Shown here in pieces: positions 13,669 to 30,598 of a stretch of DNA of 64,000 nucleotides. Numbering within the stretch: the stretch's first letter is position 1; each line of letters starts with the position of its first letter. Origin of the DNA: Agromyces sp. SYSU T00194. GTDB lineage: Bacteria > Actinomycetota > Actinomycetes > Actinomycetales > Microbacteriaceae. The translations under genes were made by a program, and so were the position numbers. The notes under the pieces were generated by a model, which made no database searches, was not told the DNA's origin, and saw only the letters and a program-made list of their open reading frames with translations. The DNA is taken from assembly GCF_040496035.1 (NCBI RefSeq), contig NZ_JBEPJZ010000001.1, positions 62,001 to 126,000 on the forward strand, in the 5' to 3' direction.

Positions 13669-15069
13669 TCAGGCGCGCTCGGCGAGCGCCGTGCTCGCCC
13701 GCGCGGCGGCTCCGGCGATGGCAGCGGCATCGGTGGTGACGAGCTCGCCGTCGGCGACGACCGTGCGGCCACCGACCACGAGCCGCGCGAGCGGCGGCAG
13801 CGCCGCGAGGCCGAGCGCCGCGACCGGGTCGGCGATGCCGGCGTGCTCGACGCCGTCGATGCGCCAGAGGGCGAGGTCGGCGAGCTTGCCGGGCTCGATC
13901 GAGCCGAGCTCGTCCTGCCGGCCGAGCACGCGCGCCCCGCCGATCGTGGCGAGGCGCAGCGCCGTGCGCACGTCCATCGCGCCGGCGCCGTCGCGCAGGC
14001 GCGCGAGCAGCACCGCCTGGCGGATCTCGTCGCCCAGCCGGCCCGACTCGTTCGACGCCGCGCCGTCGACGCCGAGCCCGACCGGGGCGCCCGCGTTCAC
14101 GAGCGCGCGCACCGGCGCGATGCCCGCCGCGAGCCGCGCGTTCGACGACGGGCAGTGCGCGACCCCGGTGCCGGTCTCGGCGAAGCGGCGCACGTCGGCG
14201 TCGTCGAGGTGCACGCAGTGCGCCATCCAGACGTCGTCGCCCAGCCAGCCGAGCGACTCGAGGTAGCCGGCGGGCGAGGTGCCGAACCGCTCGCGGCAGA
14301 ACGCCTCCTCCTCGACCGTCTCGGCGCCGTGGGTGTGCAGGCGCACGCCGAGGTCGCGCGCGAGCGCGGCCGACTCCCGCAGCAGGTCGGCGGTCACCGA
14401 GAACGGCGAGCACGGCGCCGCAGCGACGCGCACCATCGAGGAGAATCCCGGGTCGTGGTACGCCTCGACCGCCCCGCGGGTCGCCGCCAGGGCGGCATCC
14501 GTCGTCTCCACCGCGAAGTCGGGCGGCAGTCCGCCGGCGCTCCGTCCGAGGTCCATCGACCCGCGCGTCGCGTGCAGGCGGATGCCCACCTCCGACGCGG
14601 CCTCCACGATCGCGCCGACCAGGTCGCCCGCGCCCGCCGGGAACACGTAGTGGTGGTCGGCGAGCGTCGTGCAGCCCGAGCGGGCGGCCACGGCGAGCGC
14701 GCCCGCGGCCCCCGCGCGCACGAGGTCGGCGTCGATGCGCGACCACATCGGGTACAGCGCGACGAGCCAGTCGAACAGGATGTCGTCCTGCGCGAGCCCG
14801 CGCGTGAGCCACTGGTACAGGTGGTGGTGCGTGTTCACGAGCCCCGGCGTGAGCAGGTGCCCGCGCCCGTCGACGCGCTCATGGGCGGATGCCGCGAGCT
14901 CGCCGGGCACCGGCCCGGCGCCGACCGCGGTGATGCGGTCGCCGTCGACGACGACCCAGCCGTCGGCGTGCTCGGTGCCGGCGGCGTCGACGGTCGCCAC
15001 GTGGCATCCGTCGATCACGACCCGGCGAGCGCCCGCCGCCGGAGCCGCGCCCGGAGCCGCAGCCGCCAT
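13669..15069 (-). CDS. 8-oxoguanine deaminase-type amidohydrolase
   Basis: 466 aa zinc amidohydrolase, expected to deaminate 8-oxoguanine to urate, feeding the uricase encoded just upstream. Metal-site motifs are LVNTHHHLYQW (HxH at 81-83), HTHGAETVEEE, MAHCVHLDD, and GLGVDGAASNES with the catalytic Asp. The body is of the AtzA/TrzN/8-oxoguanine deaminase type. The start ATG shares one base with the uricase stop (TGATG), so it is the last gene of the urate operon. An alternative reading is another aminohydrolase of the same branch, such as guanine or ammelide deaminase; the context makes 8-oxoguanine the best guess. Confidence 0.85.
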   Translation of the reverse strand: MAAAAPGAAPAAGARRVVIDGCHVATVDAAGTEHADGWVVVDGDRITAVGAGPVPGELAASAHERVDGRGHLLTPGLVNTHHHLYQWLTRGLAQDDILFDWLVALYPMWSRIDADLVRAGAAGALAVAARSGCTTLADHHYVFPAGAGDLVGAIVEAASEVGIRLHATRGSMDLGRSAGGLPPDFAVETTDAALAATRGAVEAYHDPGFSSMVRVAAAPCSPFSVTADLLRESAALARDLGVRLHTHGAETVEEEAFCRERFGTSPAGYLESLGWLGDDVWMAHCVHLDDADVRRFAETGTGVAHCPSSNARLAAGIAPVRALVNAGAPVGLGVDGAASNESGRLGDEIRQAVLLARLRDGAGAMDVRTALRLATIGGARVLGRQDELGSIEPGKLADLALWRIDGVEHAGIADPVAALGLAALPPLARLVVGGRTVVADGELVTTDAAAIAGAAARASTALAERA

Positions 15070-15974
15070 CAGACGAGCCCGGTGTAGTGGTCCCAGGCCG
15101 GGCCGGCGTCGGGTGCGTCGTCGCGCGTGACGGTCGCCTGGATCAGGCCGTACGGCCGGTCGTCGGCGTGGAAGACCTCGTTGTCGTTGGCGATGCCGAA
15201 CGGCGCGAGGTCGTAGAGGAAGTGGTGCTTGTTCGGCGCCGACATGCGGATCTCGACGATCTCTGGGTACGCCTCGAGCACGGCGCTGCCCATCGCGTAG
15301 AGGGTCTGCTGCAGGGCGAGCGAGTGCACGTTCGCGAAGCGCTCGATCATCACGGCCTTCACGCCGTCGTACACCGCGTTCCAGTCGACCTCGGTGGTGC
15401 CGAACCGCCAGGTCGCGACCAGCGAGGTCGCCATGATGCGGTCGTTCGTCGGCTGCAGCACCGTGTACTCGTCCTCGAGGAAGCCGTGGAACTCCGAACC
15501 GGTCGACTTCAGGATCACGAGGTCCTTGAAGCCGCCGGTCACCCAGGTCTGCTGCGCGTCGCCCGAGCCCGCGACGGTGACCGACGCGAGGCGCACCTCC
15601 GAGCCGTTGCGCGTCCAGGTGTGGTCGTGCGGGGCGCCGTCGGCGACGACGCGGTCCCACGCGAACTCCTCGATCTCGATGCGGGCGGATGCCACCGGTG
15701 CGACGTCGTCCACGAAGTGCCGCGCGAGCACGAGGCCGTACGCCTCGAGCTCGGCGAGGCCGTGGAGCTTGGCGTACGCGTACGCGGTCTGCTTCTGCGT
15801 GTCGGTGGGCAGCACGTTGCCCTGGTCGCCCTCGAGGTGGGCCGCGGCGAAGTCGCCGCGCAACGCGGTCGACACGTTCACGTCGCGGATCTCGTGGCGC
15901 GGACTGTCGCGCACGATCCGCACGATGCGGTTCTCCGCCTTGCCGTACCGGTCGTCGCCGAGGATGATCGCCAT
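15069..15974 (-). CDS. Urate oxidase (uricase)
   Basis: 301 aa cofactor-free oxidase turning urate into 5-hydroxyisourate. ATG 15972-15974 with GGGAG upstream is used. The expected catalytic residues are present: Lys12 in RYGKAENR, Thr57 in LPTDTQKQT, and the His pair in APNKHHFLYDL. The T-fold repeats are complete, and the length matches bacterial uricases of about 300 aa. Its stop overlaps the 8-oxoguanine deaminase start by one base. An unusual tandem repeat occupies the 130 bases between it and the xanthine dehydrogenase stop. The C-terminus HYTGLV is a shortened form of the peroxisomal-type ending and carries no targeting meaning in bacteria. Confidence 0.96.
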   Translation of the reverse strand: MAIILGDDRYGKAENRIVRIVRDSPRHEIRDVNVSTALRGDFAAAHLEGDQGNVLPTDTQKQTAYAYAKLHGLAELEAYGLVLARHFVDDVAPVASARIEIEEFAWDRVVADGAPHDHTWTRNGSEVRLASVTVAGSGDAQQTWVTGGFKDLVILKSTGSEFHGFLEDEYTVLQPTNDRIMATSLVATWRFGTTEVDWNAVYDGVKAVMIERFANVHSLALQQTLYAMGSAVLEAYPEIVEIRMSAPNKHHFLYDLAPFGIANDNEVFHADDRPYGLIQATVTRDDAPDAGPAWDHYTGLV

Positions 15975-16104: not shown

Positions 16105-18849
16105 TCACGTGGTCGCTGCGAGCCGCCAGACGCGGTCGCGCGAGAACGGCAGCTCGTGGGGCCTCGCGCCGATCGCCCGGCGGATCGCATTGCCCATCGC
16201 CGCCGCGACCGGGTTGTACGGGCTCTCGCTCATCGACTTCGCGCCGAACGGCCCGAGGTCGTCGCTCGTCGAGGCGAAGTACACCTCGGTGTCGGGCACG
16301 TCGGCCATCTGCGGTACGCGGTAGAGGCGGAAGACCGGCGTGGTGACGCGCCCCTCGTCGAGCATGACCTCCTCGTAGAGCGCCCCGCCGATCGCCTGGG
16401 CGACGCCGCCCTCGACCTGGCCGCGGCACTGCTCGGGGTTCATGACGGTGCCCGCGTCGGCCGCCTGGATCGACTGCAGGATGCGGACGGTGCCGGTGCG
16501 CACGTCGACCGCGACCCGGAACGCGTGCACGTTGTAGGCGAGCGAACGTCGTTCGCCGTACTCGGCGCCGCGCGCGAACGCACCCTCCGGCGAGCGGTGG
16601 TCGGCGGGCACGGCGGCGACGAGCTCGGCGAAGCCGACGCGGCGTCCCCCGGCGAGCGCCCCATCGCGGTCGAGCACGACCGCATCCGGCGCGCACCCCG
16701 CGATGCCCGCCGCCGCGACGGCCAGCACCTCGCGCAGCGCGAGCGCGGCGGCGTGCACCGCCTTGCCGGCCACGGTCGTGCCGGCCGACGCGAACGCGCC
16801 GGTGTCGTGGCTCGTGGCATCCGTGTCGGCCTGGTGGATCGCGATGCGGTCCGTGCCCGTGCCGAGGTCGGTCGCGACGATCTGCGCGTGCACGGTCGTG
16901 GTGCCGTTGCCGAACTCGCTGGTGCCGACGCCGAGGAGGTAGGTGCCGTCGGGGCGGAGCGTGACGGTCGTCTCCGCGATGTGCCCGCGCGGGGCCATGG
17001 TCGCGATCATCGCGGCGGCCATGCCCTCGCCGACGCGCCACTCGGGCCCCTCGGGTGCGGCGACGCCGTTGCCGCGCCGCAGCGCCTGCTCGGCGAGGTC
17101 GAGGCACTGGTCGATGCCGTAGCTGCCGTGCTGCAATTCGGCCTCGGGCTCGTCGTGCCAGGCGAAGGGCGGTTCGCCGTCGCGGATGACGTTGCGGCGG
17201 CGCAGCTCGAACGGGTCGATGCCGAGTTCGAGCGCCAGTTCGTCGAGCGCCGACTCGACGCCGAAGATCACCTGCCCGAGCCCGTATCCGCGGAACGCGC
17301 CCGACGGCGGGTTGTTCGTGTAGACCGCCTCGGCGTCGACGCGCTTGACCGGGCTGCGGTAGAGCGAGATCGACTCGGAGCAGGCGTGGAACAGCACGCC
17401 GCGGGAATGGTTGCCGTAGGCGCCGGTGTCGCTCAGCACGTCGACGTGCATGGCGGTGAGCAGGCCCTCGCGGCTCGCGCCGAGCCGCACCGAAACGCGC
17501 ATGGGGTGCCGCAGCGTCGTGCGCGTGAACTCCTCGGTGCGGGTGAGCTCCCAGCCGACCGGCCGCCCCAGCTCGAGCGCGGCGACCGCGACGAGGTCCT
17601 CGGTGAGCAGCTCCTGCTTGCCGCCGAATCCGCCGCCCACGCGGGCGGCGTGCACGCGCACGCGCTCCGCCGGCAGGTCGAGAATGCGTGCGAGTTCGGC
17701 GCGCACGAGGAACGGCACCTGCGTGCTGGAGCGCACCACGAGCCGGCCGTCGTCGTCGATCCAGGCGATGCTGCCGTGGGTCTCGAGCTGCGCGTGGCTC
17801 TGGCGCTGCGTCCGCCAGGTGCCCGAGACGGTGACCTCGGATGCCGCGAGCGCCGCCTCGACGTCGCCGCCGAAGCCCGCGTGCAGCGCCGCGATCACGT
17901 TGCGGTCGGCCTCGTCGACGCGGTCGTCGGGCGTGCGGCCGGGGTGGATCACCGGCGCGCCCGGTTCGCGTGCCGCATCCGGGTCGAAGACGGCGGGGAG
18001 TTCCTCGTACTCCACCTCGATCGCGCGGCACGCCTCCTCGGCCGCGGCGGCGGTCGTGGCGACGACTGCCGCGACCCGCTGGCCGACGAACCGCACGACG
18101 TCGTCGAGCATGCGGGTGTCGTCGGGGTCGTCGGTGCGGTGCTGGTGGCGTCCGGTCGAGAACCGCGTGCCGGGTACGTCCTCGTGGGTGAGCACGAGCT
18201 CGACGCCCTCGATCGCGCGGGCGGCCGCGGTGTCGATCGAGACGATGCGCGCGTGGGCGTGCGGCGACCCGAGCACGCGCAGGTGCAGCATGCCGGGCAC
18301 CGCGGCGTCGAACGTGAACGGCTCGGTGCCGGTGACCACGCGCCGGGCGGCCGGCGGGTGCGCCGACGTGCCGACCGCACCGGTCGAGCCCAGGTTGCGC
18401 GCACCGCCGCGCGCGCCCGCCGCGACGCCCGCGTGGATCGACTCGCGGATGCTCCGGTACCCCGTGCACCGGCAGAGGCTCCCCTTCATGCGACGGGGCA
18501 GGTCGTCGAGATCGTCCTCCCCGAGCGTCGAGGCGGTGACGATCATGCCGGCCGTGCAGAAGCCGCACTGGAAGCCGAAGTGCTCGACGAACGCCTCCTG
18601 CATGGGGTGCAGCGCGTCGGGCGTCCCGAGCCCGGCGACCGTGGTGACCTCGGCCCCCTCGGCCCGGTGCGCCGGCGTGATGCAGGAGTGCACGGGCACG
18701 CCGTCGACGAGCACCGCGCAGGCGCCGCAGTCGCCCGCGTCGCAGCCCTTCTTCACCTCGACGTGCGCGTGCTCGCGCAGGTAGGTGCGCAGGGACTGCC
18801 CCGCCCGGGGCTCGCCGTCCTCCGGGTGGCCGTTCACGATGGTCCTCAT
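16105..18849 (-). CDS. Xanthine dehydrogenase, fused 2Fe-2S and molybdopterin subunits
   Basis: 914 aa. Residues 1-150 are the iron-sulfur subunit: first cluster Cys36, Cys41, Cys44, Cys56; second cluster Cys95, Cys98, Cys126, Cys128 (GFQCGFC and LCRCTG). After a short linker (about 150-170), the rest is the molybdenum subunit with RVGGGFGGKQ, GAFRGYGLGQ, GVGTSEFGNGT and, near the end, FGAKSMSESPYNPVAAAMGNAIR, where the catalytic Glu is expected. In many bacteria these are two genes (xdhC/A and xdhB types). The ATG overlaps the stop of the FAD-subunit gene (ATGA). It should oxidise hypoxanthine and xanthine to urate, consistent with its position before uricase. Confidence 0.93.
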   Translation of the reverse strand: MRTIVNGHPEDGEPRAGQSLRTYLREHAHVEVKKGCDAGDCGACAVLVDGVPVHSCITPAHRAEGAEVTTVAGLGTPDALHPMQEAFVEHFGFQCGFCTAGMIVTASTLGEDDLDDLPRRMKGSLCRCTGYRSIRESIHAGVAAGARGGARNLGSTGAVGTSAHPPAARRVVTGTEPFTFDAAVPGMLHLRVLGSPHAHARIVSIDTAAARAIEGVELVLTHEDVPGTRFSTGRHQHRTDDPDDTRMLDDVVRFVGQRVAAVVATTAAAAEEACRAIEVEYEELPAVFDPDAAREPGAPVIHPGRTPDDRVDEADRNVIAALHAGFGGDVEAALAASEVTVSGTWRTQRQSHAQLETHGSIAWIDDDGRLVVRSSTQVPFLVRAELARILDLPAERVRVHAARVGGGFGGKQELLTEDLVAVAALELGRPVGWELTRTEEFTRTTLRHPMRVSVRLGASREGLLTAMHVDVLSDTGAYGNHSRGVLFHACSESISLYRSPVKRVDAEAVYTNNPPSGAFRGYGLGQVIFGVESALDELALELGIDPFELRRRNVIRDGEPPFAWHDEPEAELQHGSYGIDQCLDLAEQALRRGNGVAAPEGPEWRVGEGMAAAMIATMAPRGHIAETTVTLRPDGTYLLGVGTSEFGNGTTTVHAQIVATDLGTGTDRIAIHQADTDATSHDTGAFASAGTTVAGKAVHAAALALREVLAVAAAGIAGCAPDAVVLDRDGALAGGRRVGFAELVAAVPADHRSPEGAFARGAEYGERRSLAYNVHAFRVAVDVRTGTVRILQSIQAADAGTVMNPEQCRGQVEGGVAQAIGGALYEEVMLDEGRVTTPVFRLYRVPQMADVPDTEVYFASTSDDLGPFGAKSMSESPYNPVAAAMGNAIRRAIGARPHELPFSRDRVWRLAATT

Positions 18850-19659: not shown

Positions 19660-20844
19660 TCAGTGCGCGGGACGGCCGGCGTGCACGACCGTCGAGGGCG
19701 TCGGTGCGGGGGCATCGTCGCCCTCGCGGGTGGTGCAGTGGATCGGGCCGCGCACGTCGCGCAGCGGCAGCCCCGAGGCGCCGGTACGTGCGGCGACGAC
19801 CTCGGCGAGGATCGACACGGCGGTCTCGGCGGGCGTCGCCGCCCCGAGGTCGAGGCCGATCGGCGAGTGCAGGCGGGCGAGCGCGGCGTCGTCGACGCCC
19901 GCCTCGCGCAGCAGCCGCAGCCGCTCGTCGTGGGTGCGGCGCGAGCCGAGCGCACCGACGAACGCGATCGGGAGCCGCAGCGCTGCGGCGAGCACGGGCA
20001 CGTCGGTGCGCGCGTCGTGCCCGAGCACGCACACGACGGTGCGCGGGTCCGTCGCGGTCGCCGCGAGGTGCTCGACGGGCCGCGCGACGACGACCTCGTC
20101 GGCGTGCGGGAACCGCTCGGGCGCGGCGAAGACGGGTCGCGGATCGCAGACGGTCACGCGGTAGCCGAGCGGGCGCGCGGCGGCGGCGAGCGCGTCGCCG
20201 AATGCGACGGCGCCGTAGACGAGCAGTCGGGGCGGGGCGAGGCGGCTCTCGACGAACAGCCGCAGCACGGCCTCGTCGCACTCGACCTCGACGGGCCCGG
20301 TGCGGCCGGTCGCGACCGTCCGGTCGACCTCGGCGCGCAGGCGCTCGGCGCGGAGCGAGCGGATGCCGGCGGCGACCAGGTCCGCATCGGTGATCGCCGC
20401 GGCCGGCACGCCCGCCGGGAGCACGCGGCCGATGAGCGGCGGCGGCCCCGCGACCACGACGGCGACGCCCGCGTCGGAGCCCGCCAGCGCGGCGTGGAAC
20501 GGCCCCGCCGCGGCATCCGCCCCCGAGTGCCGCCCCGGGAACGGCTGCACGAACACGTCGAGCTCGCCGCCGCAGCTGAGGCCGACCGCGAACGCGGTCT
20601 CGTCGTCGATGCCGAAGCGCTCGGTGCGCGCGACGCCGTCCTCGAGGGCGAGGCCGCACAGCTCGAACACGGCGCCCTCGACGCAGCCGCCCGACACGCT
20701 GCCCGCGACCCGGCCGTGCGCGTCGACCAGCATCGACGTGCCCACCGGCAGCGGCGCGGAGCCCGTGATCGCGGTCACCGTCGCGAGCGCGAACGACTCC
20801 CCGCGGCCGAGACGGGCCACGACGTCCTGCGCCAGTTCGAGCAT
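19660..20844 (-). CDS. xdhC: XdhC/CoxI-family molybdenum cofactor insertion protein
   Basis: 394 aa chaperone that binds and delivers sulfurated Mo cofactor to xanthine dehydrogenase. The N-terminal XdhC_CoxI domain shows ATVTAITGSAPLPVGTSM, GSVSGGCVEGAVF and LSCGGELDVFVQPFP. The C-terminal Rossmann domain begins near LLVYGAVAFGDAL and contains VVCVLGHDARTDVPVL and VGALGSRRTHDERLRLLREAG. It is the first gene of the leftward xanthine/urate operon, divergent from allantoinase across a 180-base region. No strong Shine-Dalgarno sequence is visible at ATG 20844. Confidence 0.93.
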   Translation of the reverse strand: MLELAQDVVARLGRGESFALATVTAITGSAPLPVGTSMLVDAHGRVAGSVSGGCVEGAVFELCGLALEDGVARTERFGIDDETAFAVGLSCGGELDVFVQPFPGRHSGADAAAGPFHAALAGSDAGVAVVVAGPPPLIGRVLPAGVPAAAITDADLVAAGIRSLRAERLRAEVDRTVATGRTGPVEVECDEAVLRLFVESRLAPPRLLVYGAVAFGDALAAAARPLGYRVTVCDPRPVFAAPERFPHADEVVVARPVEHLAATATDPRTVVCVLGHDARTDVPVLAAALRLPIAFVGALGSRRTHDERLRLLREAGVDDAALARLHSPIGLDLGAATPAETAVSILAEVVAARTGASGLPLRDVRGPIHCTTREGDDAPAPTPSTVVHAGRPAH

Positions 20845-21024
20845 CGATACCTCACTTCGCAAACGGGTGCGGATCACGTCCGTACGATCGGGTGATCCTA
20901 TGCGCGACGCGTTAACCCGGTGTTTCGATCCTGCCCCCATCCGGCGCCGAGCGCACGGGACCTTCGCCGCATGCACGCAACCGGCGCGAAATGCGACGCT
21001 GTTAACGTCAGCCGTGGAGGAACC
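20845..21024. promoter_or_regulatory. Divergent xdhC/allB control region with two GTTAAC sites
   Basis: The 180-base gap between the xanthine/urate operon and the allantoinase unit holds GTTAAC at 20911-20916 and 21001-21006, exactly 90 bases apart, each preceded by a GCGACGC-like heptamer. Read on the minus strand, 20911-20926 is GAAAC-N6-TTAAC, which resembles part of an actinobacterial GlnR box (half sites gTnAC and GaAAC spaced by six). A GTGGAGG ribosome-binding site serves allB. The GlnR reading is tentative. Confidence 0.4.
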
Positions 21025-22392
21025 ATGCCCGATACCCCGCTCCACGACCTCGTCGTGCGCGCCGATGCCGCGCTCGTCGACGGCCGCCTCGCCCCTGCCG
21101 AGATCGGCGTCGACGACGGCGTGATCACCGCCGTCGCCGCCGCCGGCAGCGGCCTGCGCGGCCGCGAGACCGCACGGGTCGACGGCGGCCGCGTGCTGCT
21201 GCCGGGCGTCGTCGACGCCCACGTGCACGTGAACGAGCCCGGCCGCACCGAGTGGGAGGGCTTCGCGACCGCGACCCGCGCCGCCGCGGCCGGCGGGGTC
21301 ACGACGATCCTCGACATGCCGCTCAACAGCATCCCGCCGACGATCGACCCCGGCGCACTGCGCGTGAAGCGCGAGGCGGCGGGCCGCGCGGCACACGTCG
21401 ACGTCGGGTTCTGGGGCGGCGCGGTGCCCGGCAACCTCGGCGCGGGGGCGCTCCGCGCCCTCCACGACGCCGGCGTCTTCGGCTTCAAGGCGTTCCTGTC
21501 GCCGTCGGGCGTCGACGAGTTCCCGCCGCTCGACGCCGCGGGCCTCGACGCCGCGCTCGACGAGCTCGCCGCGTTCGACGGCCTGCTCATCGTGCACGCG
21601 GAGGACCCGGACGTGCTCGACGCGCACGCGAACGACGGCGGGCCGAGTCCGCGCCGGTTCGCCGAGTCCCGGCCGCCGCAGGCCGAGCTCGACGCGGTGC
21701 GCCGGGTCATCGCGGGCATCCGTCGCACCGGGGGCCGCGCGCACATCCTGCACGTGTCGTCGGCCGCGGTGCTGCCGCTCGTCGCCGAGGCCAAGGCCGA
21801 GGGGCTGCGCCTGACCGCCGAGACCTGCCCGCACTACCTGACGCTCGACCTCGAGCACATCCCCGACGGCGCGACGGCGTTCAAGTGCTGCCCGCCCATC
21901 CGCGACGAGGGCAACCGCGACCTGCTCTGGCAGGGGCTCGTCGACGGCACGCTCGACTGCGTCGTCTCCGACCACTCCCCTGCGACCGCCGACCTGAAGC
22001 TCGGCTTCGACGGCGACTTCGGTCGCGCCTGGGGCGGCATCTCCGGGCTCCAGCTCTCGCTCGCGAACGTCTGGACCGACGCGCGCCGCCGCGGCATCGG
22101 GCTGGAGCTCGTGCTCGACCGGATGTCGCGCGCCACTGCCGACCTGGCCGGCCTGCCGCACAAGGGGCGCATCGCCGTCGGCGCCGACGCCGACCTGGTC
22201 GCCTTCGACCCCGACGCGGCGTTCACCGTCGAGGCGGCCGCGCTGCGGCACCGCAACCCGGTCTCCGCCTACGACGGCAGGACGCTCACGGGCGTGGCCG
22301 ACGCGGTGTGGCTGCGCGGCACGCCGATCCACCCCGACGGTCCGCCCACCGGGCACCTGATCGACCGTCCCGCCGAAGGGAGCACCCGATGA
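21025..22392 (+). CDS. allB: Allantoinase
   Basis: 455 aa binuclear-zinc cyclic amidohydrolase opening allantoin to allantoate. Metal ligands: His66 and His68 in DAHVHVNEPGR, the carboxylated Lys155 in GFKAFLSPSG, and the His residues of HILHVSS and AETCPHYL. The catalytic Asp lies in VVSDHSPA, followed by WGGISGLQLSL, typical for allantoinase rather than dihydroorotase or hydantoinase. Length matches. GTGGAGG lies seven bases before the ATG. The stop overlaps the guanine deaminase start (ATGA). Confidence 0.95.
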   Translation: MPDTPLHDLVVRADAALVDGRLAPAEIGVDDGVITAVAAAGSGLRGRETARVDGGRVLLPGVVDAHVHVNEPGRTEWEGFATATRAAAAGGVTTILDMPLNSIPPTIDPGALRVKREAAGRAAHVDVGFWGGAVPGNLGAGALRALHDAGVFGFKAFLSPSGVDEFPPLDAAGLDAALDELAAFDGLLIVHAEDPDVLDAHANDGGPSPRRFAESRPPQAELDAVRRVIAGIRRTGGRAHILHVSSAAVLPLVAEAKAEGLRLTAETCPHYLTLDLEHIPDGATAFKCCPPIRDEGNRDLLWQGLVDGTLDCVVSDHSPATADLKLGFDGDFGRAWGGISGLQLSLANVWTDARRRGIGLELVLDRMSRATADLAGLPHKGRIAVGADADLVAFDPDAAFTVEAAALRHRNPVSAYDGRTLTGVADAVWLRGTPIHPDGPPTGHLIDRPAEGSTR

Positions 22393-22941: not shown

Positions 22942-23280
22942 CTAGCTGCCGCGGTACGTGGAGTACGCGAACGGGCTGAGCAGCAGCGGGATGTGGAAGT
23001 GCTGCGCGGGGTCGTCGAGCAGGAAGTCGATCGCGACCTCGGCGTAGAAGGTCGGCCGGTCGCCGAAGTACGCGGCCGTGTCGAAGACCACGCGGTAGCG
23101 CCCGGCGGGCAGCTGCTCGGGCCCGAGCGTGCCGACCCGCCCGTCGGCGTCGGTGATGCCGGTGCCCACCGTGCGCCAGCCGACGGCATCGGATGCCTCG
23201 AGCCGCACCCCGACCCCGGGCGCCGGGCGCCCGGTGGTGGCGTCGAGCACGTGCGAGGTGACGTGGCTGCGGCCGGTCAT
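22942..23280 (-). CDS. uraH: 5-Hydroxyisourate hydrolase (transthyretin-like)
   Basis: 112 aa, standard length. It carries the family's N-terminal SHVLDATTGRPAPGV and C-terminal YSTYRGS (the YRGS signature). It hydrolyses the uricase product 5-hydroxyisourate to OHCU. The ATG overlaps the stop of uraD (ATGA), so uraD-uraH form a two-gene unit transcribed leftwards. Convergent with the guanine deaminase gene, 37 bases apart. Confidence 0.96.
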   Translation of the reverse strand: MTGRSHVTSHVLDATTGRPAPGVGVRLEASDAVGWRTVGTGITDADGRVGTLGPEQLPAGRYRVVFDTAAYFGDRPTFYAEVAIDFLLDDPAQHFHIPLLLSPFAYSTYRGS

Positions 23281-23789
23281 GCCGCCGCTCCGATCGGTGC
23301 CGACGCGCCGCCGTAGAGCTGCTCGAGCCGCAGCAGCGCGATCTGGGCGAGCTGGTCGGCCACCGTCTCGAGCTCGCTCGCGTCGTCGAGTTCCAGACGT
23401 CGCCGCAGCTCGGACAGGATCTCGGCCCGGCTGCGGCCGGCGGCGCGGATGAGGAAGACGCGGCCGAACCGCTCCTCGTAGGCCCGGTTGCCGTCGGCGA
23501 TGGCGCGGGCCAGGTCCTCGTCCGATGCGTCGGCCGACGCCTGCTCGGCGCGCGAGAACGACTGGGCCGCCCCCTCGCCGGTCGGCCGCTCGCCGATGCG
23601 GGGGTGGCTCGCGAGCGCCTCGTCGACCTCGGCGGCGTCGAGCCGGGCGGCCGATGCGGACGCGGCGGTGCGCAGGGCGTCGAACGAGTCGTACGGGGCG
23701 CCGGCGGCCACGTCGTCGACGAACCGGGCGACGTGCAGGCACGCGGCGAGGTCGGCGCGGAAGGCGTCGGGCGCGGGCGTCTCGGGCAT
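23277..23789 (-). CDS. uraD: OHCU decarboxylase
   Basis: 170 aa. It makes S-allantoin by decarboxylating 2-oxo-4-hydroxy-4-carboxy-5-ureidoimidazoline. Family marks: ARFVDDVAAGAPYDSF, LASHPRIGER with the catalytic His, SRAEQASAD, and NRAYEERFGRVFLIRAAGRSR. I use ATG 23787-23789 instead of an upstream in-frame GTG because TACAGT lies seven bases before that ATG, as in a leaderless transcript, and the GTG falls inside that box. Stop overlaps uraH. Divergent from mocA with only 16 bases between starts. Confidence 0.94.
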   Translation of the reverse strand: MPETPAPDAFRADLAACLHVARFVDDVAAGAPYDSFDALRTAASASAARLDAAEVDEALASHPRIGERPTGEGAAQSFSRAEQASADASDEDLARAIADGNRAYEERFGRVFLIRAAGRSRAEILSELRRRLELDDASELETVADQLAQIALLRLEQLYGGASAPIGAAA

Positions 23790-23796
23790 GTGGTCC

Positions 23797-23802
23797 ACTG
23801 TA
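23797..23802 (-). promoter_or_regulatory. -10 box TACAGT, leaderless promoter of uraD
   Basis: TACAGT on the minus strand ends seven bases before ATG 23789. It sits within the 16 bases separating the divergent uraD and mocA starts. Confidence 0.5.
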
Positions 23803-24412: not shown

Positions 24413-25267
24413 CTACGGCGCCTCGACCTCGCCGAGACGCGCGTAGGCGTCGTCGATCCGCGCGATGCGCGTGCGGCCCGCGCGCATGTCGCCCGCGAGC
24501 ACCGCGCTCGCGACCAGGCTCGCGAGGCTCATCGCGCTCGCGTAGCTCGAGAACGCGCCCGCGCCGTCGACCGGGCACGCGATGACGGTCCCGGCACCCG
24601 CAGCCGCCTCCGCGCCCGCGGGGTCCACGATCGCGATCGTCTCCGCGCCGGTGGCCGCGGCCGCCGCGACGAGCTCGGCGAACCCCTCGGGGCGCCGCCG
24701 CAGCCCGACCAGCACGGCCGCGTCGCCCGGGCCGAGGTCGGCGAGCTCCTCCCCCACCGACTGGCCCGGCTGCGGCGCGACGCGCACCCCCGGGCGGCAC
24801 TGGGCGAGCTGCTCGCGCAGGTGCAGCGCGACCGGGTAGCCGTTGCGGTACCCGGCGACGAGCACGGTCCCCGCCTCGCGGAGGAGCGTCGCCACGCGCT
24901 CGAGCACGCCGTCGGCGAGCCCGTCGAGCAGGCGCGAGAGGTTCGCCCGCTCGGCCTCGAGCACGGCGGCCATGCCCGCGGGGGCGGTGGCCGGCACGCC
25001 CGCGTGCCCGAGCGGCGTGCCCGAGCTGCGGAGCGCGCGCACGTGGTCGCGCACCTCCGCCGACCCCGAGAAGCCGAGCCGCCGGTAGAGGCGGCTGACC
25101 GTCGCCTTGGACACCCCGGTCATGCGCGCGAGCTCGCTCGAGTTGTAGACGGCGAGCTCGGCCGGGTGGTCGAGCATGAACTCCGCGACCCGTCGCTCCT
25201 GCGGCGTCAGCACGTCGAGCGCGCCGTCGATCCGCTCGGCGATGGTGCGGGGCATCCGCTCGGTCAT
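24413..25267 (-). CDS. RpiR/MurR-family transcriptional regulator
   Basis: 284 aa. The N-terminal helix-turn-helix (about 10-85) includes LTPQERRVAEFMLDHP, SSELARMTGVSKATVSRLYRR and LGFSG. The C-terminal SIS domain (about 120-270) includes VLVAGYRNGYPVALHLREQL and GDAAVLVGLRRRPEGF. It is the last gene of the PucG-AllC-RpiR unit and is coupled to AllC by ATGA, so it likely senses a purine-catabolic intermediate and regulates this island. Ureido compounds are more plausible ligands here than the sugar phosphates usual for SIS domains, but that is inference. Confidence 0.88.
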   Translation of the reverse strand: MTERMPRTIAERIDGALDVLTPQERRVAEFMLDHPAELAVYNSSELARMTGVSKATVSRLYRRLGFSGSAEVRDHVRALRSSGTPLGHAGVPATAPAGMAAVLEAERANLSRLLDGLADGVLERVATLLREAGTVLVAGYRNGYPVALHLREQLAQCRPGVRVAPQPGQSVGEELADLGPGDAAVLVGLRRRPEGFAELVAAAAATGAETIAIVDPAGAEAAAGAGTVIACPVDGAGAFSSYASAMSLASLVASAVLAGDMRAGRTRIARIDDAYARLGEVEAP

Positions 25268-26586
25268 GCGTGGTGCCCGACCCCGTGCGGCTCGGGCGGC
25301 GCGGGCGTGACCAGCCGGTCCGGCTCGGCGCGCACGCGGTCGGCGACCGCGAGCACCGCGGCCTCCATCGCGTCGAGCGCGAGCGCCACGTCGCGCCGGG
25401 CCACGGTCTCGTCGGGGTGGTGGCTGATGCCGCCGCGGCCGCACCGGATGAACAGCATCGCGATGTCGGTGACGGCCTGCACGGCCATGCCGTCGTGGCC
25501 GGCCCGGCTCCAGATGCGCATCGGGTCGTCGTCGCCGGTCGAGCGGATGCCGGCCTCGACCGCGTCCTGCAGCCAGTCGGCGCACGGGGTCGCGTCGGCC
25601 CGGTAGCGCTCGTCGGCGGTGAAGGCGAGGCCGCGGCGCGACGCGATCTCCGCGGCCGTCCGCTCGATCTCGGCGAACGCGGCGTCGCGCGCCTCGTTCG
25701 TCTCGGCGCGCAGGTCGAGGCTGAACTCGGCGCGGCCCGGGATGACGTTCACGCCGCCCGGGAAGGCCTGCATCCGGCCGACGGTGGCGATGGTGCCCGA
25801 CTCGATGCCGATGCGCTCGATGGCGGCCACGAGCTCGCTCGCACCGACCAGCGCGTCGCGGCGGCGCGCGTAGGGCGTGCCGCCGGCGTGCCCGGCGACG
25901 CCGGTCATCGTCAGGGCGAAGCGGCGGGCACCGGCGATGGTCGGCACCACGGCGAGCGCCCGGTCGGCGTCCTCGAGGTAGGGGCCCTGCTCGATGTGCG
26001 CCTCGAGGTAGCCGACGAGCGCCTCGGGCCGACGCGCGGCGGCACCGATGCGACCCGGATCGAGCCCGAAGTCGATGCTCGCGTCGGCGTAGGTGAGCCC
26101 GTCGGCCCCGCGGTACTCCCACCAGTCGTGGGAGAAGTGCCCGGCGAGCGCGCGGCTGCCGGCGAGCGCGCTGCCGAAGCGGGTGCCCTCCTCGTCACTG
26201 AACCCGACGACCTCGAGTGCGAACGGCAGCGGCTCGTCGCGGGCCGCGATGCGCGCGGCCACCTCGATCGCGAGCAGCACGCCGAGCATGCCGTCGTAGC
26301 GGCCGGCGTCGCGCACCGTGTCGAGGTGCGAGCCGAGCAGCAGCGCCGGCAGGCCGTCGACCGCGCCCTCGAGGCGGCCGCACTGGTTGCCCGCGGCGTC
26401 CTGCCAGGCCTCGAGCCCGGCCTCGGCGATCCACCCGGCCGCGAGGTCGTTCGCCTCGCGGTGCTCGGGCGAGAGGTGCACGCGCTCGATCATGCCGGGC
26501 ATCGAGGTGATGGTGCCGAGCCGGTCGCAGCGGTCGAGGATGCGCTCGGCCACTGCCAGGGACCCGGTGCGGAGCCGGTCGCTCAT
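25264..26586 (-). CDS. allC: Allantoate amidohydrolase (M20 family)
   Basis: 440 aa binuclear metal hydrolase of the AllC/HyuC/ureidopropionase group. Metal-site motifs: LLGSHLDTVRDAGRYDGMLGV, GFSDEEGTRFG, LEAHIEQGPYLE, and AGHDGMAVQ; GVAGHAGGTPYARRRDAL lies in the dimer domain. It should release ammonia and CO2 from allantoate to give ureidoglycine. Both ends are coupled (ATGA to the aminotransferase upstream and to the RpiR gene downstream). N-carbamoyl amino acid hydrolase is the alternative, but the neighbours favour allantoate. Confidence 0.92.
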   Translation of the reverse strand: MSDRLRTGSLAVAERILDRCDRLGTITSMPGMIERVHLSPEHREANDLAAGWIAEAGLEAWQDAAGNQCGRLEGAVDGLPALLLGSHLDTVRDAGRYDGMLGVLLAIEVAARIAARDEPLPFALEVVGFSDEEGTRFGSALAGSRALAGHFSHDWWEYRGADGLTYADASIDFGLDPGRIGAAARRPEALVGYLEAHIEQGPYLEDADRALAVVPTIAGARRFALTMTGVAGHAGGTPYARRRDALVGASELVAAIERIGIESGTIATVGRMQAFPGGVNVIPGRAEFSLDLRAETNEARDAAFAEIERTAAEIASRRGLAFTADERYRADATPCADWLQDAVEAGIRSTGDDDPMRIWSRAGHDGMAVQAVTDIAMLFIRCGRGGISHHPDETVARRDVALALDAMEAAVLAVADRVRAEPDRLVTPAPPEPHGVGHHA

Positions 26587-27839
26587 GCGCCCGCCCCGGT
26601 GGCCGCGTCGGCGGCAGCGGCAGCGTCGGCGTAGGAGTCGCGCGCGGCGCCCACGCCCGCGCCCGCGGTCAGCGGGTGCCCCTCGGCCCGCAGCACCTGC
26701 TCCAGGGCGGCGAGGGTCGTGAGCACGGCGTCGCGGCGGGCGTTGTATCCCATGGTGCCGATGCGCCAGATCCTCCCGTGCAGCGGGCCGAAGCTCGTGC
26801 CGATCTCGATCGCGAAGTCGTCGATGAGGGCCCCGCGCACGCGTTCGCCGTCGACGCCGTCGGGGATGTGCACGCCGACCACGTTGTGCATGCGGTGCGC
26901 CTGGTCGCCGAACAGGTCCAGGCCCATCGCCGACAGGCCCGCGGCGAGCGCGGCGCCGTTCACGCGGTGCCGGTCGATCGCGTGCTCCATGCCCTCCTCG
27001 AGCAGCAGGCGCGCGCACTCGCGGGCGCCGTACAGCATCGTGGTGGCCTCGGTGTGGTGGTTGAGGCGCTTCTCGCCCCAGTAGTCGAGGATCATGCCGA
27101 GGTCGAAGTAGTTCGACCGGATGGGGTCGGCGCGCACGGCGTCGCCGGCCGAGCGGATGCCCGCCTCGATGCTCTTGCGCGACTCGATGCGCTCGACCGC
27201 GCGCGGCGAGAGGCTGATCGGCGCGCTGCCCGAGGGGCCGCCGAGGCACTTCTGCAGGCCGGCGGTGGCGGCGTCGAGGCCCCAGGCGTCCATCTCGAAC
27301 GCGTTGCCGCCGAGCGAGGCGGTGACGTCGGTGTAGAACAGCGCGCCGTGCTCGGCGCAGATCGCGGCGAGCTCGTCGAGCGGCTGGGCGACCGTCGTGG
27401 AGGTGTCGCCGTGCACGATCGCGAGCAGGTGGGGGCGCACCTCGCGCATGGCGGCCTCGATGCGCTCGGGGGGAACGACCTCGCCCCACTCGACCTCGAT
27501 CGTGTGCACCTCGGCGCCGCAGCGACCGGCGATCTCCGCGAGGAGGTGGCCGAACCGGCCGAAGATCGGCACGAGCACCCGGTCGCCCGGCTCCAGCAGG
27601 GAGACGAGCGCCGCCTCGATGCCCGCGCGCGAGGTGCCGTCCACGAGCAGCGTCGCCTCGTTCCGGGTGCGGAACACCCCGCGGTAGAGCGCCATGGTCT
27701 CGTTCATGTACGCGGTCATCGACGGGTCGTACTGGCCGACGAGCTGCGCCGACATGGCGCGCAGCACGCGCGGGTCGGCGTTGACGGGGCCGGGTCCCAT
27801 GAGCAGGCGGGTGGGCGGGTTGATCGGTGCGGCGTGGAT
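26583..27839 (-). CDS. pucG: (S)-Ureidoglycine-glyoxylate aminotransferase, probable AUC start
   Basis: PLP enzyme of the alanine-glyoxylate aminotransferase fold, expected to move the amino group of ureidoglycine to glyoxylate, giving oxalurate and glycine. Signature MGPGPVNADPRVLRAMS opens the domain; Lys in AGLQKCLGGPSG is the Schiff-base residue. The first ATG (27800) would drop the family-typical HAAPINPPTRLL. In frame upstream, a perfect AGGAGG (27845-27850) is followed after five bases by ATC at 27837-27839, giving 418 aa. An ATG directly abutting AGGAGG is out of frame. So either AUC is the start, or a point change has altered ATG. The conservative fallback is 26583..27800 (405 aa). 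Stop overlaps allC. Confidence 0.88.
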   Translation of the reverse strand: MHAAPINPPTRLLMGPGPVNADPRVLRAMSAQLVGQYDPSMTAYMNETMALYRGVFRTRNEATLLVDGTSRAGIEAALVSLLEPGDRVLVPIFGRFGHLLAEIAGRCGAEVHTIEVEWGEVVPPERIEAAMREVRPHLLAIVHGDTSTTVAQPLDELAAICAEHGALFYTDVTASLGGNAFEMDAWGLDAATAGLQKCLGGPSGSAPISLSPRAVERIESRKSIEAGIRSAGDAVRADPIRSNYFDLGMILDYWGEKRLNHHTEATTMLYGARECARLLLEEGMEHAIDRHRVNGAALAAGLSAMGLDLFGDQAHRMHNVVGVHIPDGVDGERVRGALIDDFAIEIGTSFGPLHGRIWRIGTMGYNARRDAVLTTLAALEQVLRAEGHPLTAGAGVGAARDSYADAAAAADAATGAGA

Positions 27840-27848
27840 GGCATCCTC

Positions 27849-27904
27849 CTGAATCGTCTGTTTCAGAAGACCATCATACGCAACGCGTGTTTCAGTCGCG
27901 TTGC
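27849..27904. promoter_or_regulatory. Operator/promoter region of the pucG-allC-rpiR unit
   Basis: It contains a perfect 8-bp dyad GCAACGCG-N9-CGCGTTGC (27880-27904), two direct TGTTTCAG copies (27859-27866 and 27888-27895), and CTGAA-N8-TTCAG (27849-27866). TATGAT on the minus strand (27873-27878) is a good -10 box between them. The dyad starts inside the end of the upstream amidase gene. This is the most likely binding place of the RpiR-type regulator encoded at the end of the unit. Confidence 0.55.
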
Positions 27905-29502
27905 ATGATCGCCTCGTGCCAGCGCGCCGCGGCCGAGACCAGCGCGAGGTCGCCGCCGCGCGGCCCGACCACGCACGTGCCGAGCGGCGCGCCGTCGACC
28001 TCCGCGCCCGGGACCGACAGCGCCGGGCGACCCGTCGCCCCGGCGACCGCCGTCATCCGCAGCGTCGCCGTCCGCACCGCCTCGATGTCGGCGCCCTCGG
28101 CGTCGAGCGCCGGCGCGACCGACGCGGCCGACGGCAGCAGGAGCAGCCCGTCGCCGAGCGCCGCGTCGATGTCGCGACGGGCCGCGTCGAGCACCGCGAT
28201 CGCCGCGGCCTCGTCGTCGGCGGTCACCTCGGAGGCCCAGGCGAAGCGCGCGGCCACGTCCGGGGCGAGGGCGTCCGGGTGCGCGGTGATCCACGTCCCG
28301 TGCGCGCGCCACGCCTCAGCGGCCTGCGCCGTGCGGAACGCCGCGAACAGCGCGTCGAGCGCCGCCGCGCCCAGGGCTGGCACGTCGAGCCCGCGCACCT
28401 CGCATCCCGAGGCGCCCAGCGCTCGGACGGCCGCCTCGAACGCCTCCCGCACACCCGGCCCGAGCCCCTCGAGGAGGGCCGGCGCCACGCGCAGCACGGC
28501 GTCGTCGAGGGGGCGCGCCCCACCGGCCGCATCCGCCCCCGCGGCGCGCGGCAGGCTCGCCCGTGCCGCGGCCTCGAGCGTCGCCCGGTCGCGCGCCAGC
28601 CAGCCGACGGTGTCGAATCGCGGCGCGAGCGGCAGCACCCCGGCGCGGTCGACCGCCCCGTGGGTCGTGCGGAGGCCCCACAGGCCCTGGTACGACGCCG
28701 GCACCCGGATCGATCCCGCGGTGTCGGTGCCGAGCCCGAGGTCGGCCTGCCCCAGCGCCACCGCCGACGCCGGCCCGCTGGTCGAGCCGCCCGAGACCGC
28801 GCCCGGCACGGCGGGGTTCGGCGGGGTGCCGTACGCGGGGTTGCGCCCGGCGATGCTGTACGCGAACTGGTCCGTGCGCGCGATGCCGCGGATCGCGGCA
28901 CCGGCGGCCCGCAGCGCGTCGACGGCCGCGGCCGAGCGCGGTTCGACCGGCGCCTCATCGAGGTACGCCGGGATCCCCGCGCCGATCGGATGCCCCGCCA
29001 CGGCGAACACGTCCTTGACCGCCACCGTCCGCCCGTCGAGGGCGCCCGATGCGGTCGGCGGCAGCAGCGGGTCGCCGAGGGTGCGCCAGGTGCGCCGGTC
29101 GAACGCGGGCGCGGGGGCGGTCACGTGCGCCGCCGCGATGCGCCACCGCCCCTGCCCGCGGCGCCAGAGCTGGCTCACCGTGCCGCGTCCGCCGGCGCCC
29201 GGCGCGTGCGCGACCACGACGTGCGCGACGCCGTCCGCCACGGGCAGCACGTGCACCGCAACGACGCGTCGCGCGCCCGCACCACCGCGCCGGCCGCGGA
29301 AGCGCGTGATGGCGTCGTGTCCGACGAGCAGCCCCGAGGCATCCGCCCGCATCGTGTCGTCGCCGGGCTCGAACCAGTCGGCCAGGGCATCGAGGTCGTC
29401 GGCCATGAGCGCGGCCTCGTACCCGAGCACGGCGCCGAGGAGCCCCTCGGGGGCGTCCGCCCCGCCCGCCACCCGAACCCGCGGCCCGCCGGCGTCAGCC
29501 AC
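27892..29502 (-). CDS. Fusion of AtzH/HpxZ-like domain and amidase-signature hydrolase
   Basis: 536 aa. Residues about 12-130 form an AtzH-like (DUF3225, SnoaL-like) domain: YEAALMADDLDALADWFEP, TMRADASGLLVGHDAITRFR, VSQLWRRGQGRWRIAAAHVT. Residues about 140-530 are an amidase-signature enzyme: Lys163 in GRTVAVKDVF, the Ser-rich loop VSGGSTSGPAS (237-246), and nucleophile Ser264 in GTDTAGSIRVP. In Klebsiella oxalurate genes and in the cyanurate pathway, the DUF3225 protein and an AtzE-type amidase are separate. The fused form, next to the oxalurate-producing aminotransferase, suggests hydrolysis of oxalurate or a similar ureido acid. GTG start; eight-base overlap with the FmdA gene. Confidence 0.87.
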   Translation of the reverse strand: MADAGGPRVRVAGGADAPEGLLGAVLGYEAALMADDLDALADWFEPGDDTMRADASGLLVGHDAITRFRGRRGGAGARRVVAVHVLPVADGVAHVVVAHAPGAGGRGTVSQLWRRGQGRWRIAAAHVTAPAPAFDRRTWRTLGDPLLPPTASGALDGRTVAVKDVFAVAGHPIGAGIPAYLDEAPVEPRSAAAVDALRAAGAAIRGIARTDQFAYSIAGRNPAYGTPPNPAVPGAVSGGSTSGPASAVALGQADLGLGTDTAGSIRVPASYQGLWGLRTTHGAVDRAGVLPLAPRFDTVGWLARDRATLEAAARASLPRAAGADAAGGARPLDDAVLRVAPALLEGLGPGVREAFEAAVRALGASGCEVRGLDVPALGAAALDALFAAFRTAQAAEAWRAHGTWITAHPDALAPDVAARFAWASEVTADDEAAAIAVLDAARRDIDAALGDGLLLLPSAASVAPALDAEGADIEAVRTATLRMTAVAGATGRPALSVPGAEVDGAPLGTCVVGPRGGDLALVSAAARWHEAIMQRD

Positions 29503-30598
29503 GCCGCACCGCCCCGAAGTCGGAGGTGCGGATGCGGGCGTGCACGCCCTTCACCAGGTCGACCACCTGGGAGATGTCGAAGTCGGTCGCCGCGCTGAGG
29601 TACGCGTAGGCGAGGTGCGGCGCCATGCCGTACCGCGCGCCGAGCAGCGCGATGGCGTGCCGCACGCAGTCCTGCATCGCGAGGTCGAGGTCGGGGTCCA
29701 TGCCGGTGGGCACGAGGTAGTCGCCCGTCTCGGCGAGCGGGGTCGCCACGTCGCCGAACGCGCGCACCGCGTCCTCCCGGGCGACCACGTCGAAGCGCAG
29801 CGTGCCGCGCAGCGACGCCTCCAGCGCCGTGAGCGCGACCTCCCCGTCGCCCTGGGCGAAGTGCGGGTCGCCGACGTACGCGAGCGCACCGGGCACCTGC
29901 ACCGGCAGGTACAGCGACGCGCCCTCGGTGAGCAGGTTGATGTCGATGTTGCCGCCGTGCGGCCCGGGCGGCACCGAGTGCGGACGCTCGTCGGCATCGA
30001 CGGCGACGCCCATGATGCCGAAGAAGGGTGCCAGCGGGAACCGCACGACCCGCTCGCCGCCGTCGACGAGCGGGAGGCCGCCCGACCACTCTCCCGCGTC
30101 GTCCTGCGCGATCGGGGCGAAGACGCTCACGTTCCCCGGCGCCTGCGGGTACTCGCCGGGCAGCGCGCCCCGCCCGTGCCGGTTCGAGATGACGCCGTAC
30201 GGCACCCGCGGCGTGGTGTCGAGCACCGTGATCTTCAGCAGGTCGCCGGGCTCGGCACCGCGCACCCGGATCGGGCCGGTCACGACGTGGGGCCCGTCGG
30301 TCGCCGGGTCGCGCGAGCGGTCGGATGCCGCGAGCGCGACCGCCTCCGCGAGCACCGCCTCCCGATCGACGCCCTCGGCCCCGAAGAACGCGAGCGGGTC
30401 GCGCCCCTGGTCCTCGAGGAGGCCCTCGTGGCTGACGGTGTCGATGACGACCACGGCGCCCGGATCGACGGTCAGCACGGGTGCGTCCGCGCGCGATGGC
30501 AGGCGCCCCCAGTGCAGGGCCCCGGGCTCGGCGGGCAGGTAGGCCGTGCCGCCGTCGATCCCCGCGCCCGCCTGGAGCACTCCTCGATATCCGCCCAT
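29495..30598 (-). CDS. FmdA/AmdA-type acetamidase/formamidase
   Basis: 367 aa, metal-dependent formamidase/acetamidase family. Marks: VVVIDTVSHEGLLEDQG, GPIRVRGAEPGDLLKI, RFPLAPFFGIMGVA, PHGGNIDINLL, VGDPHFAQGDGEV, and DFDISQVVDLVKGVHARI near the end. It hydrolyses small amides to acid and ammonia; the natural substrate here could be formamide or an amide from oxalurate breakdown such as oxamate. It overlaps the AtzH-amidase gene by eight bases (GTGGCTGA), so the two are coupled. Confidence 0.9.
   Translation of the reverse strand: MGGYRGVLQAGAGIDGGTAYLPAEPGALHWGRLPSRADAPVLTVDPGAVVVIDTVSHEGLLEDQGRDPLAFFGAEGVDREAVLAEAVALAASDRSRDPATDGPHVVTGPIRVRGAEPGDLLKITVLDTTPRVPYGVISNRHGRGALPGEYPQAPGNVSVFAPIAQDDAGEWSGGLPLVDGGERVVRFPLAPFFGIMGVAVDADERPHSVPPGPHGGNIDINLLTEGASLYLPVQVPGALAYVGDPHFAQGDGEVALTALEASLRGTLRFDVVAREDAVRAFGDVATPLAETGDYLVPTGMDPDLDLAMQDCVRHAIALLGARYGMAPHLAYAYLSAATDFDISQVVDLVKGVHARIRTSDFGAVRRG

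Follow-up and report, generated by a model that had tools for sequence, protein, structure and literature searches.

Related systems are known from Klebsiella and from cyanuric acid degradation. In the hpx system of Klebsiella, HpxX is a small GatC-like protein, HpxY is of the AtzE type and HpxZ is a separate protein. The oxamate step is performed there by HpxW, a gamma-glutamyltranspeptidase-like oxamate amidohydrolase, as described in the available text of two studies (PMC3560190; PMC5270733). In the latter, AtzH has been proposed to decarboxylate the N-carboxylated compound that an amidase-signature enzyme produces, and the gene order atzG-atzE-atzH has been reported beside ggt (PMC6219798, from its available text). 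The gene contexts of AtzH homologs, examined in Proteobacteria, gave little evidence on function (PMC6219798). For nitrifiers, a 2025 study proposed related ureide clusters that include a GatA-like amidohydrolase described as uncharacterised, and its available text does not describe the fusion analyzed here (PMC12625717). We have analyzed a stretch of 64,000 nucleotides from Agromyces sp. SYSU T00194 (positions 62,001 to 126,000 of contig NZ_JBEPJZ010000001.1; hereafter the window), in which a gene joining an AtzH-like domain to an amidase lies between a gene of the FmdA/AmdA family and pucG, which encodes ureidoglycine aminotransferase.

We conclude that in the purine clusters of many soil bacteria the fusion and the FmdA-family protein probably perform the last steps, hitherto unassigned, which would free the remaining nitrogen of oxalurate. 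Their predicted membership of the PucG/allantoin pathway we regard as highly likely. To the fuller reading, in which they would complete the ureidoglycine-transaminase branch of actinobacterial purine catabolism as its terminal enzymes, with the division of labor proposed below, we assign a probability of roughly 0.6. Through these clusters a concrete role that can be tested is assigned to an AtzH fusion and to an FmdA subfamily, and a fate is proposed for the PucG product, in bacteria of soil and plants and in some associated with animals.

The fusion protein and its two neighbors

The fusion is encoded on the minus strand at 27892..29502 and, from a GTG start, comprises 536 amino acids; we propose that it is a bifunctional oxalurate amidohydrolase and N-carboxyoxamate decarboxylase. 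Residues 25-128 (29119..29430, minus strand) match the Pfam AtzH-like family (PF11533) with 54.7 bits over a cut-off of 27, and are also placed by residue alignment. Residues 152-521 (27940..29049, minus strand) match Pfam Amidase (PF01425) with 174.9 bits. The original prediction, that the two domains are joined in a single open reading frame (29502-27892) with Lys163 and Ser264 intact in the amidase half, is borne out on both points, and cis-Ser240 is present too.

The same architecture is found widely. A protein search with the fusion scored 7996 candidates sharing most words and gave 3009 matches; both Pfam domains are present in all 120 of the matches listed, which include the window's own protein and come from Agromyces, Demequina, Frigoribacterium, Rathayibacter and others. 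We also assembled a set of named loci, the best 80 of at least 584 named candidates, which leans to near relatives and overlaps some of the family and class genomes described below. The two domains share a reading frame in 78 of these 80 loci, and a check for intervening stops, confined to 62 fused loci, reported none. The fusion is genuine, and no artefact.

By profile score the amidase half is not of the AtzE type. Its closest profile is NF006169 (PRK08310) at 350 bits, under the cut-off of 391, and the AtzE models, which have cut-offs of 426 and 461, gave 120-122 bits; these scores are PRK08310-like and place it outside the AtzE/HpxY equivalog. On the AtzH-like part the HpxZ model scored 42 bits against a cut-off of 135. 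Homologues of the fusion are mostly named in databases as 'AtzH-like domain-containing protein', 'DUF3225 domain-containing protein' or as amidases, once as 'atzE', and also as 'Asp-tRNA(Asn)/Glu-tRNA(Gln) amidotransferase A subunit family amidase'. Such names, given by domain or remote similarity, are uninformative. No description of an AtzH-amidase fusion was found in the literature searched, the coverage of which mostly excludes subscription journals.

Upstream lies the gene of the FmdA/AmdA-family amidase (29495..30598, minus strand; 367 amino acids), a proposed oxamate amidohydrolase. Its end overlaps the GTG start of the fusion by 8 nucleotides and its product matches Pfam FmdA_AmdA (PF03069) with 112.5 bits, confirming the predicted coupling of the fusion to an FmdA-type gene. 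The fusion had also been placed directly upstream of a ureidoglycine-glyoxylate aminotransferase gene, and here too the assignment stands. The downstream gene is pucG (26583..27839, minus strand; 27800-26583 as called), whose product scores 590.7 bits against the ureidoglycine-glyoxylate aminotransferase of K. pneumoniae (3nnk) and 441.3 bits against B. subtilis PucG (3isl). The next-best PDB match scores 287.9 bits, so that among class V aminotransferases the protein is closest to the characterized PucG/HpxJ. As a member of this family the protein is predicted to make oxalurate.

Association with PucG across genomes

A family sample of 199 genomes was searched for the amidase, PucG and FmdA at E <= 1e-60, and a class sample of 296 genomes for the amidase and PucG only. 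In the family sample the amidase was found in 60 genomes and FmdA in 57. PucG was matched in 59; two of these, G003 and G064 (211-219 bits), were taken to be other aminotransferases and set aside, and the remaining 57 score at least 578 bits. The class sample gave 27 PucG matches, 20 of them strong (at least 593 bits) and seven weak (208-235 bits) and set aside. None of the nine genomes set aside for a weak PucG has an amidase match. All 57 family genomes with a strong PucG carry the amidase, and 54 of them FmdA. Surveyed in this way for co-occurrence with pucG, as had been proposed, 57 of the 60 amidase-positive family genomes have a strong PucG, the others being G039, G066 and G139; FmdA is found without PucG in G044, G056 and G101. 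In the class sample the amidase is present in 41 of 296 genomes, including 20 of the 20 with strong PucG, weakly (212 bits) in one of these (G329).

The association extends to physical linkage. Amidase and PucG lie within 10 kb of each other in 49 of the 57 family genomes, and in the remainder are more than 20 kb apart or on other contigs, as they are on separate contigs in G401 of the class sample. In 28 of 30 family loci examined with flanks of about 1.5 kb FmdA adjoins the fusion, and in 21 PucG does. Of the 80 named loci, 63 have PucG and 67 have FmdA within the fetched flank; a same-strand FmdA immediately precedes the fusion in 63, and a same-strand PucG follows it in 58. Nine of the 80, some on short contigs, have neither PucG nor the second gene context discussed below. 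No plasmid match was obtained at E 1e-60.

The linkage of FmdA, fusion and PucG survives REARRANGEMENT, and the gene order differs between lineages. The order of the window, FmdA-fusion-PucG-M20-RpiR (M20 being the allantoate amidohydrolase), is found in L083 and others. L148, L150 and L156 have FmdA-fusion-UraD-hydroxyisourate hydrolase-uricase-AllB-PucG-M20-RpiR-xanthine dehydrogenase, L100 and L153 have AllB-FmdA-fusion-PucG-M20, and L203 has AllB-FmdA-fusion-PucG; in L098 FmdA-fusion is divergent from PucG. In Bifidobacterium amazonense and B. subtile (L245 and L256) the order is PucG-M20-AllB-FmdA-fusion beside an RpiR gene, and no urate oxidase was seen in the flanks, that of L245 being short on one side. 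By its predicted functions this is a near-minimal set for converting allantoin to oxalate. One further cluster, L210, resembles the Microbacterium loci and stands on a contig titled Planococcus sp. APC 4015. Planococcus is the name of a Firmicute, and the contig is likely to be mislabelled or contaminated.

The proposed division of labor and its alternatives

From the gene content, linkage, domains and conservation of catalytic residues observed, we infer substrates, an order of steps, their products and a benefit of tethering as follows. PucG would make oxalurate. The amidase half, with Ser264, Ser240 and Lys163, would attack the ureido carbonyl of oxalurate, with loss of the terminal ammonia to leave the unstable carbamate N-carboxyoxamate. 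The tethered AtzH half, with Tyr28 and Arg52, would decarboxylate this to oxamate, which the FmdA-family protein would then hydrolyze to oxalate and ammonia. Attack at the ureido carbonyl fits the proposal that AtzH follows an amidase giving an N-carboxylated product.

In AtzH itself Tyr22 and Arg46 are reported as the most important residues, mutation of which removes or reduces its effect, and the pocket is lined by Arg63, Arg66, Arg73, Phe94, Arg96, Gln106 and Gln108 (PMC6219798, available text). Alignment to 6bjt by phmmer, with positions counted by hand, pairs Tyr22 with Tyr28 of the fusion, Arg46 with Arg52, Arg63 with Arg69, Arg66 with Arg72 and Gln108 with Gln111. The same alignment gave Arg79 for Arg73, and this was replaced, since MAFFT alignments set Arg73 against the invariant Arg78. 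A residue survey covered 139 loci, some genomes being represented twice, with an AtzH match in 108 and an amidase match in 135. Tyr28, Arg52, Arg69 and Gln111 are present in 108 of 108 AtzH-matching loci and Arg72 in 106; in the 78 named fusions Tyr28, Arg69, Arg78 and Gln111 are found in all, Arg52 in 77 and Arg72 in 75. Lys163, Ser240 and Ser264 are each present in 134 of the 135 amidase-matching loci. The near-strict conservation of Tyr28 and Arg52 argues for catalysis by the AtzH half over a purely structural role.

A number of observations weigh against this reading. The Fisher p-values in the family sample (9e-47 for amidase with PucG, 4e-41 for FmdA with PucG) are uncorrected for shared ancestry. 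At E 1e-60 FmdA was not matched in three genomes that have PucG and the amidase (G040, G109 and G123), nor was it seen in the flank of 8 of the 63 named PucG loci. In G007, G090 and G153 FmdA adjoins PucG with no amidase match between them; each has as its sole amidase match a more distant fusion, which lies on a different contig or far away, and in G007 beside recR. A fusion occurring mostly without pucG was not seen in the family or the named set, but only 20 of the 41 amidase-positive genomes of the wider class have a strong PucG, and among the 21 lacking it are both fusions and unfused amidases with other surroundings. Seven PucG genomes (G194, G036, G193, G034, G053, G070 and G243) keep the amidase without any AtzH domain. 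Conservation among the fusions does not extend to the pocket residues Phe94 and Arg96 of AtzH, and Gln106 is only partly kept. Urease is present in the window's own genome and in 5 of 29 other PucG genomes tested. Lastly, amidase and AtzH occur in PucG-free loci, with several of creatininase-like, isochorismatase-like, luciferase-type monooxygenase, cupin and metallo-beta-lactamase genes nearby. The compact actinobacterial route for oxalurate or oxamate breakdown that had been suggested thus keeps its place in the PucG/allantoin pathway (57/57 genomes and 63/80 loci), and loses exclusive use in purine breakdown, a need for AtzH and a constant FmdA. Where FmdA or the clustered amidase is missing, the ten neighbors scanned are permeases and genes without evident link; in G034 the only FmdA is distant, about 410 kb away.

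The absence of AtzH was traced on a tree of 89 amidase domains, the bootstrap of which is not fully settled. Sixty-two of these are fused to AtzH in frame, six have an adjacent AtzH in another frame and 21 are without it. The fused label changes 16 times on the tree, 12 of the changes being forced by well-supported branches. Several AtzH-less amidases nest among fused ones of PucG genomes, and that of L078 is the sister of the window's protein. In L061, L062, L064, L078 and L173 the gap from the FmdA match to the amidase domain is just 14-58 bp. A separate AtzH gene that might compensate was considered and rejected for nine of the 11 genomes tested (the seven listed above, with G066 and G039), in which PF11533 was not found anywhere; in G123 AtzH is on a second copy. 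In G228 (L163) the amidase is preceded by half of an AtzH domain, which covers model positions 61-122, scores below the cut-off and is apparently being lost.

The seven PucG genomes that retain the amidase and have no AtzH show that decarboxylation by an enzyme cannot be indispensable. Repeated loss of AtzH would make the amidase central to the pathway and leave AtzH as an optional accelerator. Intermediates of the cyanurate pathway are reported to decay spontaneously too (PMC6219798, available text), and the losses are consistent with a carbamate intermediate that would decay unaided too. Such losses from a cluster that is otherwise kept offer a natural experiment for asking if an intermediate that decays requires an enzyme at all.

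The retention of the amidase through repeated loss of AtzH would also suit other roles within the same pathway. FmdA might open oxalurate and the amidase half hydrolyze oxamate, or the amidase might split oxalurate into oxamate and carbamate, with AtzH only clearing carbamates or serving in oligomerization. Neither assignment is forced by gene content, since FmdA and the clustered amidase are each missing from some PucG clusters. Yet the near-strictly conserved AtzH catalytic pair points away from a purely structural function, and the known partner reaction of AtzH is a deamination by an amidase-signature enzyme (PMC6219798, available text). We therefore regard these exchanged roles as rather unlikely.

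The PucG-free loci bear on the specificity of the pair. They comprise L151, L162, L165 and L168 together with eight named loci (L217, L243, L246, L254, L257, L259, L260 and L264), in six of which FmdA is present. The occurrence of amidase and AtzH, often with FmdA, in such a purine-free cluster indicates that the module is not purine-specific. It also lends something to the suggestion that the pair acts on another purine- or pyrimidine-derived amide, for example the ureide of a second heterocycle, and lies near pucG through co-regulation for nitrogen scavenging: in these loci the pair or its amidase stands without PucG beside the creatininase-like, isochorismatase-like, luciferase-type monooxygenase and cupin genes. 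But the linkage to PucG spans many genera despite the changing gene order, and the Bifidobacterium loci contain, among the genes sought, only RpiR, PucG, M20, AllB, FmdA and the fusion. An explanation by co-regulation seems to us improbable.

Two observations concern AtzH outside the amidase. At L168:9371-10816 Pfam places an AtzH-like domain at the C-terminus of a metallo-beta-lactamase protein, and not on the amidase. In L171, L174, L175, L185 and L186 AtzH lies near a similar metallo-beta-lactamase-type protein in a frame other than that of the amidase, which suggests a like fusion.

Cleavage of oxalurate by the amidase at the oxalyl carbonyl, giving urea and oxalate with FmdA acting on an unrelated amide, is chemically possible for an amidase-signature enzyme, and the six genomes with urease noted above would be in keeping with it. 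However, 24 of the 30 PucG genomes gave no match to urease alpha, which speaks against such cleavage in most of them, and the AtzH domain and the tight FmdA linkage would be left without a reason. This scheme was set aside, the urease of the window's genome notwithstanding, and we consider it highly improbable.

Returning to deamination followed by decarboxylation, we tentatively put forward, a little short of even confidence, a broader proposal. It would describe a distinct actinobacterial end to purine breakdown, in which one polypeptide deaminates oxalurate and then decarboxylates N-carboxyoxamate, and an FmdA-family oxamate amidohydrolase unrelated to HpxW acts last. The amidase-AtzH protein and FmdA would form a portable module that clears ureido acids, and a second heterocycle pathway would employ it again alongside creatininase-like, isochorismatase-like and luciferase-type enzymes.

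The wider cluster and related systems

Downstream of pucG lie genes for an allantoate amidohydrolase of the M20 family (25264..26586, minus strand; NF006775, 502 bits against a cut-off of 479), an RpiR-family regulator (24413..25267, minus), OHCU decarboxylase (UraD; 23277..23798, minus) and hydroxyisourate hydrolase (22942..23280, minus). ATGA overlaps join the allantoate amidohydrolase gene with pucG, the RpiR gene with that of the allantoate amidohydrolase, and the hydroxyisourate hydrolase gene with uraD. Beyond these are allantoinase AllB (20920..22392, plus strand, start uncertain), an XdhC/CoxI-family protein (19660..20844, minus), a xanthine dehydrogenase-like protein (16105..18849, minus) and urate oxidase (15069..15974, minus), the starts of the last three being estimated. 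Since the genes from uraD to urate oxidase reach to about 15 kb, the fusion, FmdA and pucG sit at one end of a cluster predicted to run from xanthine to ureidoglycine. The xanthine dehydrogenase-like protein (914 amino acids) has its Fe-S and molybdenum parts in one chain, and an FAD-binding part is absent among its Pfam matches. Upstream of FmdA, 30658-32037 encodes an FAD/NAD(P)-binding oxidoreductase-like protein that matches Pfam only weakly and NCBIfam not at all; the wide loci compared and the 80 named loci contain no relative at E 1e-15.

The start of pucG in the window is unusual. The conserved N-terminus of PucG (INPP.RLL) is encoded upstream of the ATG at 27800 chosen by the gene caller, and no in-frame ATG, GTG or TTG lies within the 40 codons checked upstream. 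The sequence AGGAGG (27850-27845) stands 5 nucleotides ahead of an ATC at 27839-27837, 13 codons upstream of the called ATG; at the same position in other pucG loci ATG is the commonest nearest in-frame start. A standard start is missing in 10 of 126 distinct pucG loci, with ATC behind a GGAG-type site in six (the window and others among L044, L058, L059, L098, L224 and L267), ATT in one, and ambiguity in L034, L041 and L199. The true start in the window is probably this ATC. Nothing relevant to AUC start codons was found in the literature searched.

Components of the known systems were sought in PucG genomes. AtzE did not exceed the TIGR02715 cut-off in any of 24 genomes, one control genome being over it; AtzG/GatC-like PF13318 was found in none of 24, where the control genomes gave no match either; and AllG was found in none of 24, with E. 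coli positive as control. The lack of AtzE and AllG, the known alternatives for oxalurate, counts in favor of the proposed route. An HpxW-like gene is missing from the window's cluster, the sole PF01019 match of this genome being at C1:1434448 (the window is C1:62001-126000). A tblastn search with the gamma-glutamyltranspeptidase of G084, a single query by which distant members could be missed, matched L083 alone among the 80 loci, and nothing in the window. Gamma-glutamyltranspeptidases are present in 11 of the 15 genomes tested for replacement of FmdA, and by that query only the FmdA-bearing L083 has one in the cluster. There the gene (L083:13059-14798) lies within the purine cluster with FmdA also present.

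The FmdA-family protein shares Pfam membership with the formamidases and acetamidases, but at 81.4 bits does not reach the cut-off of 500 of the curated formamidase model NF045496. The oxamic transcarbamylase AllFGH of E. coli, with the carbamate kinase AllK, deals with oxalurate in the final stage of allantoin degradation, as is proposed here for the fusion and FmdA; unlike the present proposal it yields carbamoyl phosphate and oxamate and employs three other subunits (PMC11326118, available text). AtzG-AtzE-AtzH of Pseudomonas sp. ADP, acting in cyanuric acid breakdown, resembles our proposal in the succession of an amidase-signature deaminase and AtzH, and the counterparts of Tyr22 and Arg46 are kept in the fusion. 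There, however, AtzE requires AtzG, the substrate is 1-carboxybiuret and the three proteins are separate (PMC6219798, available text). Klebsiella hpxWXYZ, like the window, is linked to ureidoglycine aminotransferase and allantoate amidohydrolase and includes amidase-signature and DUF3225 (AtzH-like) proteins. In the window FmdA stands in place of HpxW, and the domain that forms the separate DUF3225 protein HpxZ in Klebsiella is present as a fusion ahead of a PRK08310-like amidase.

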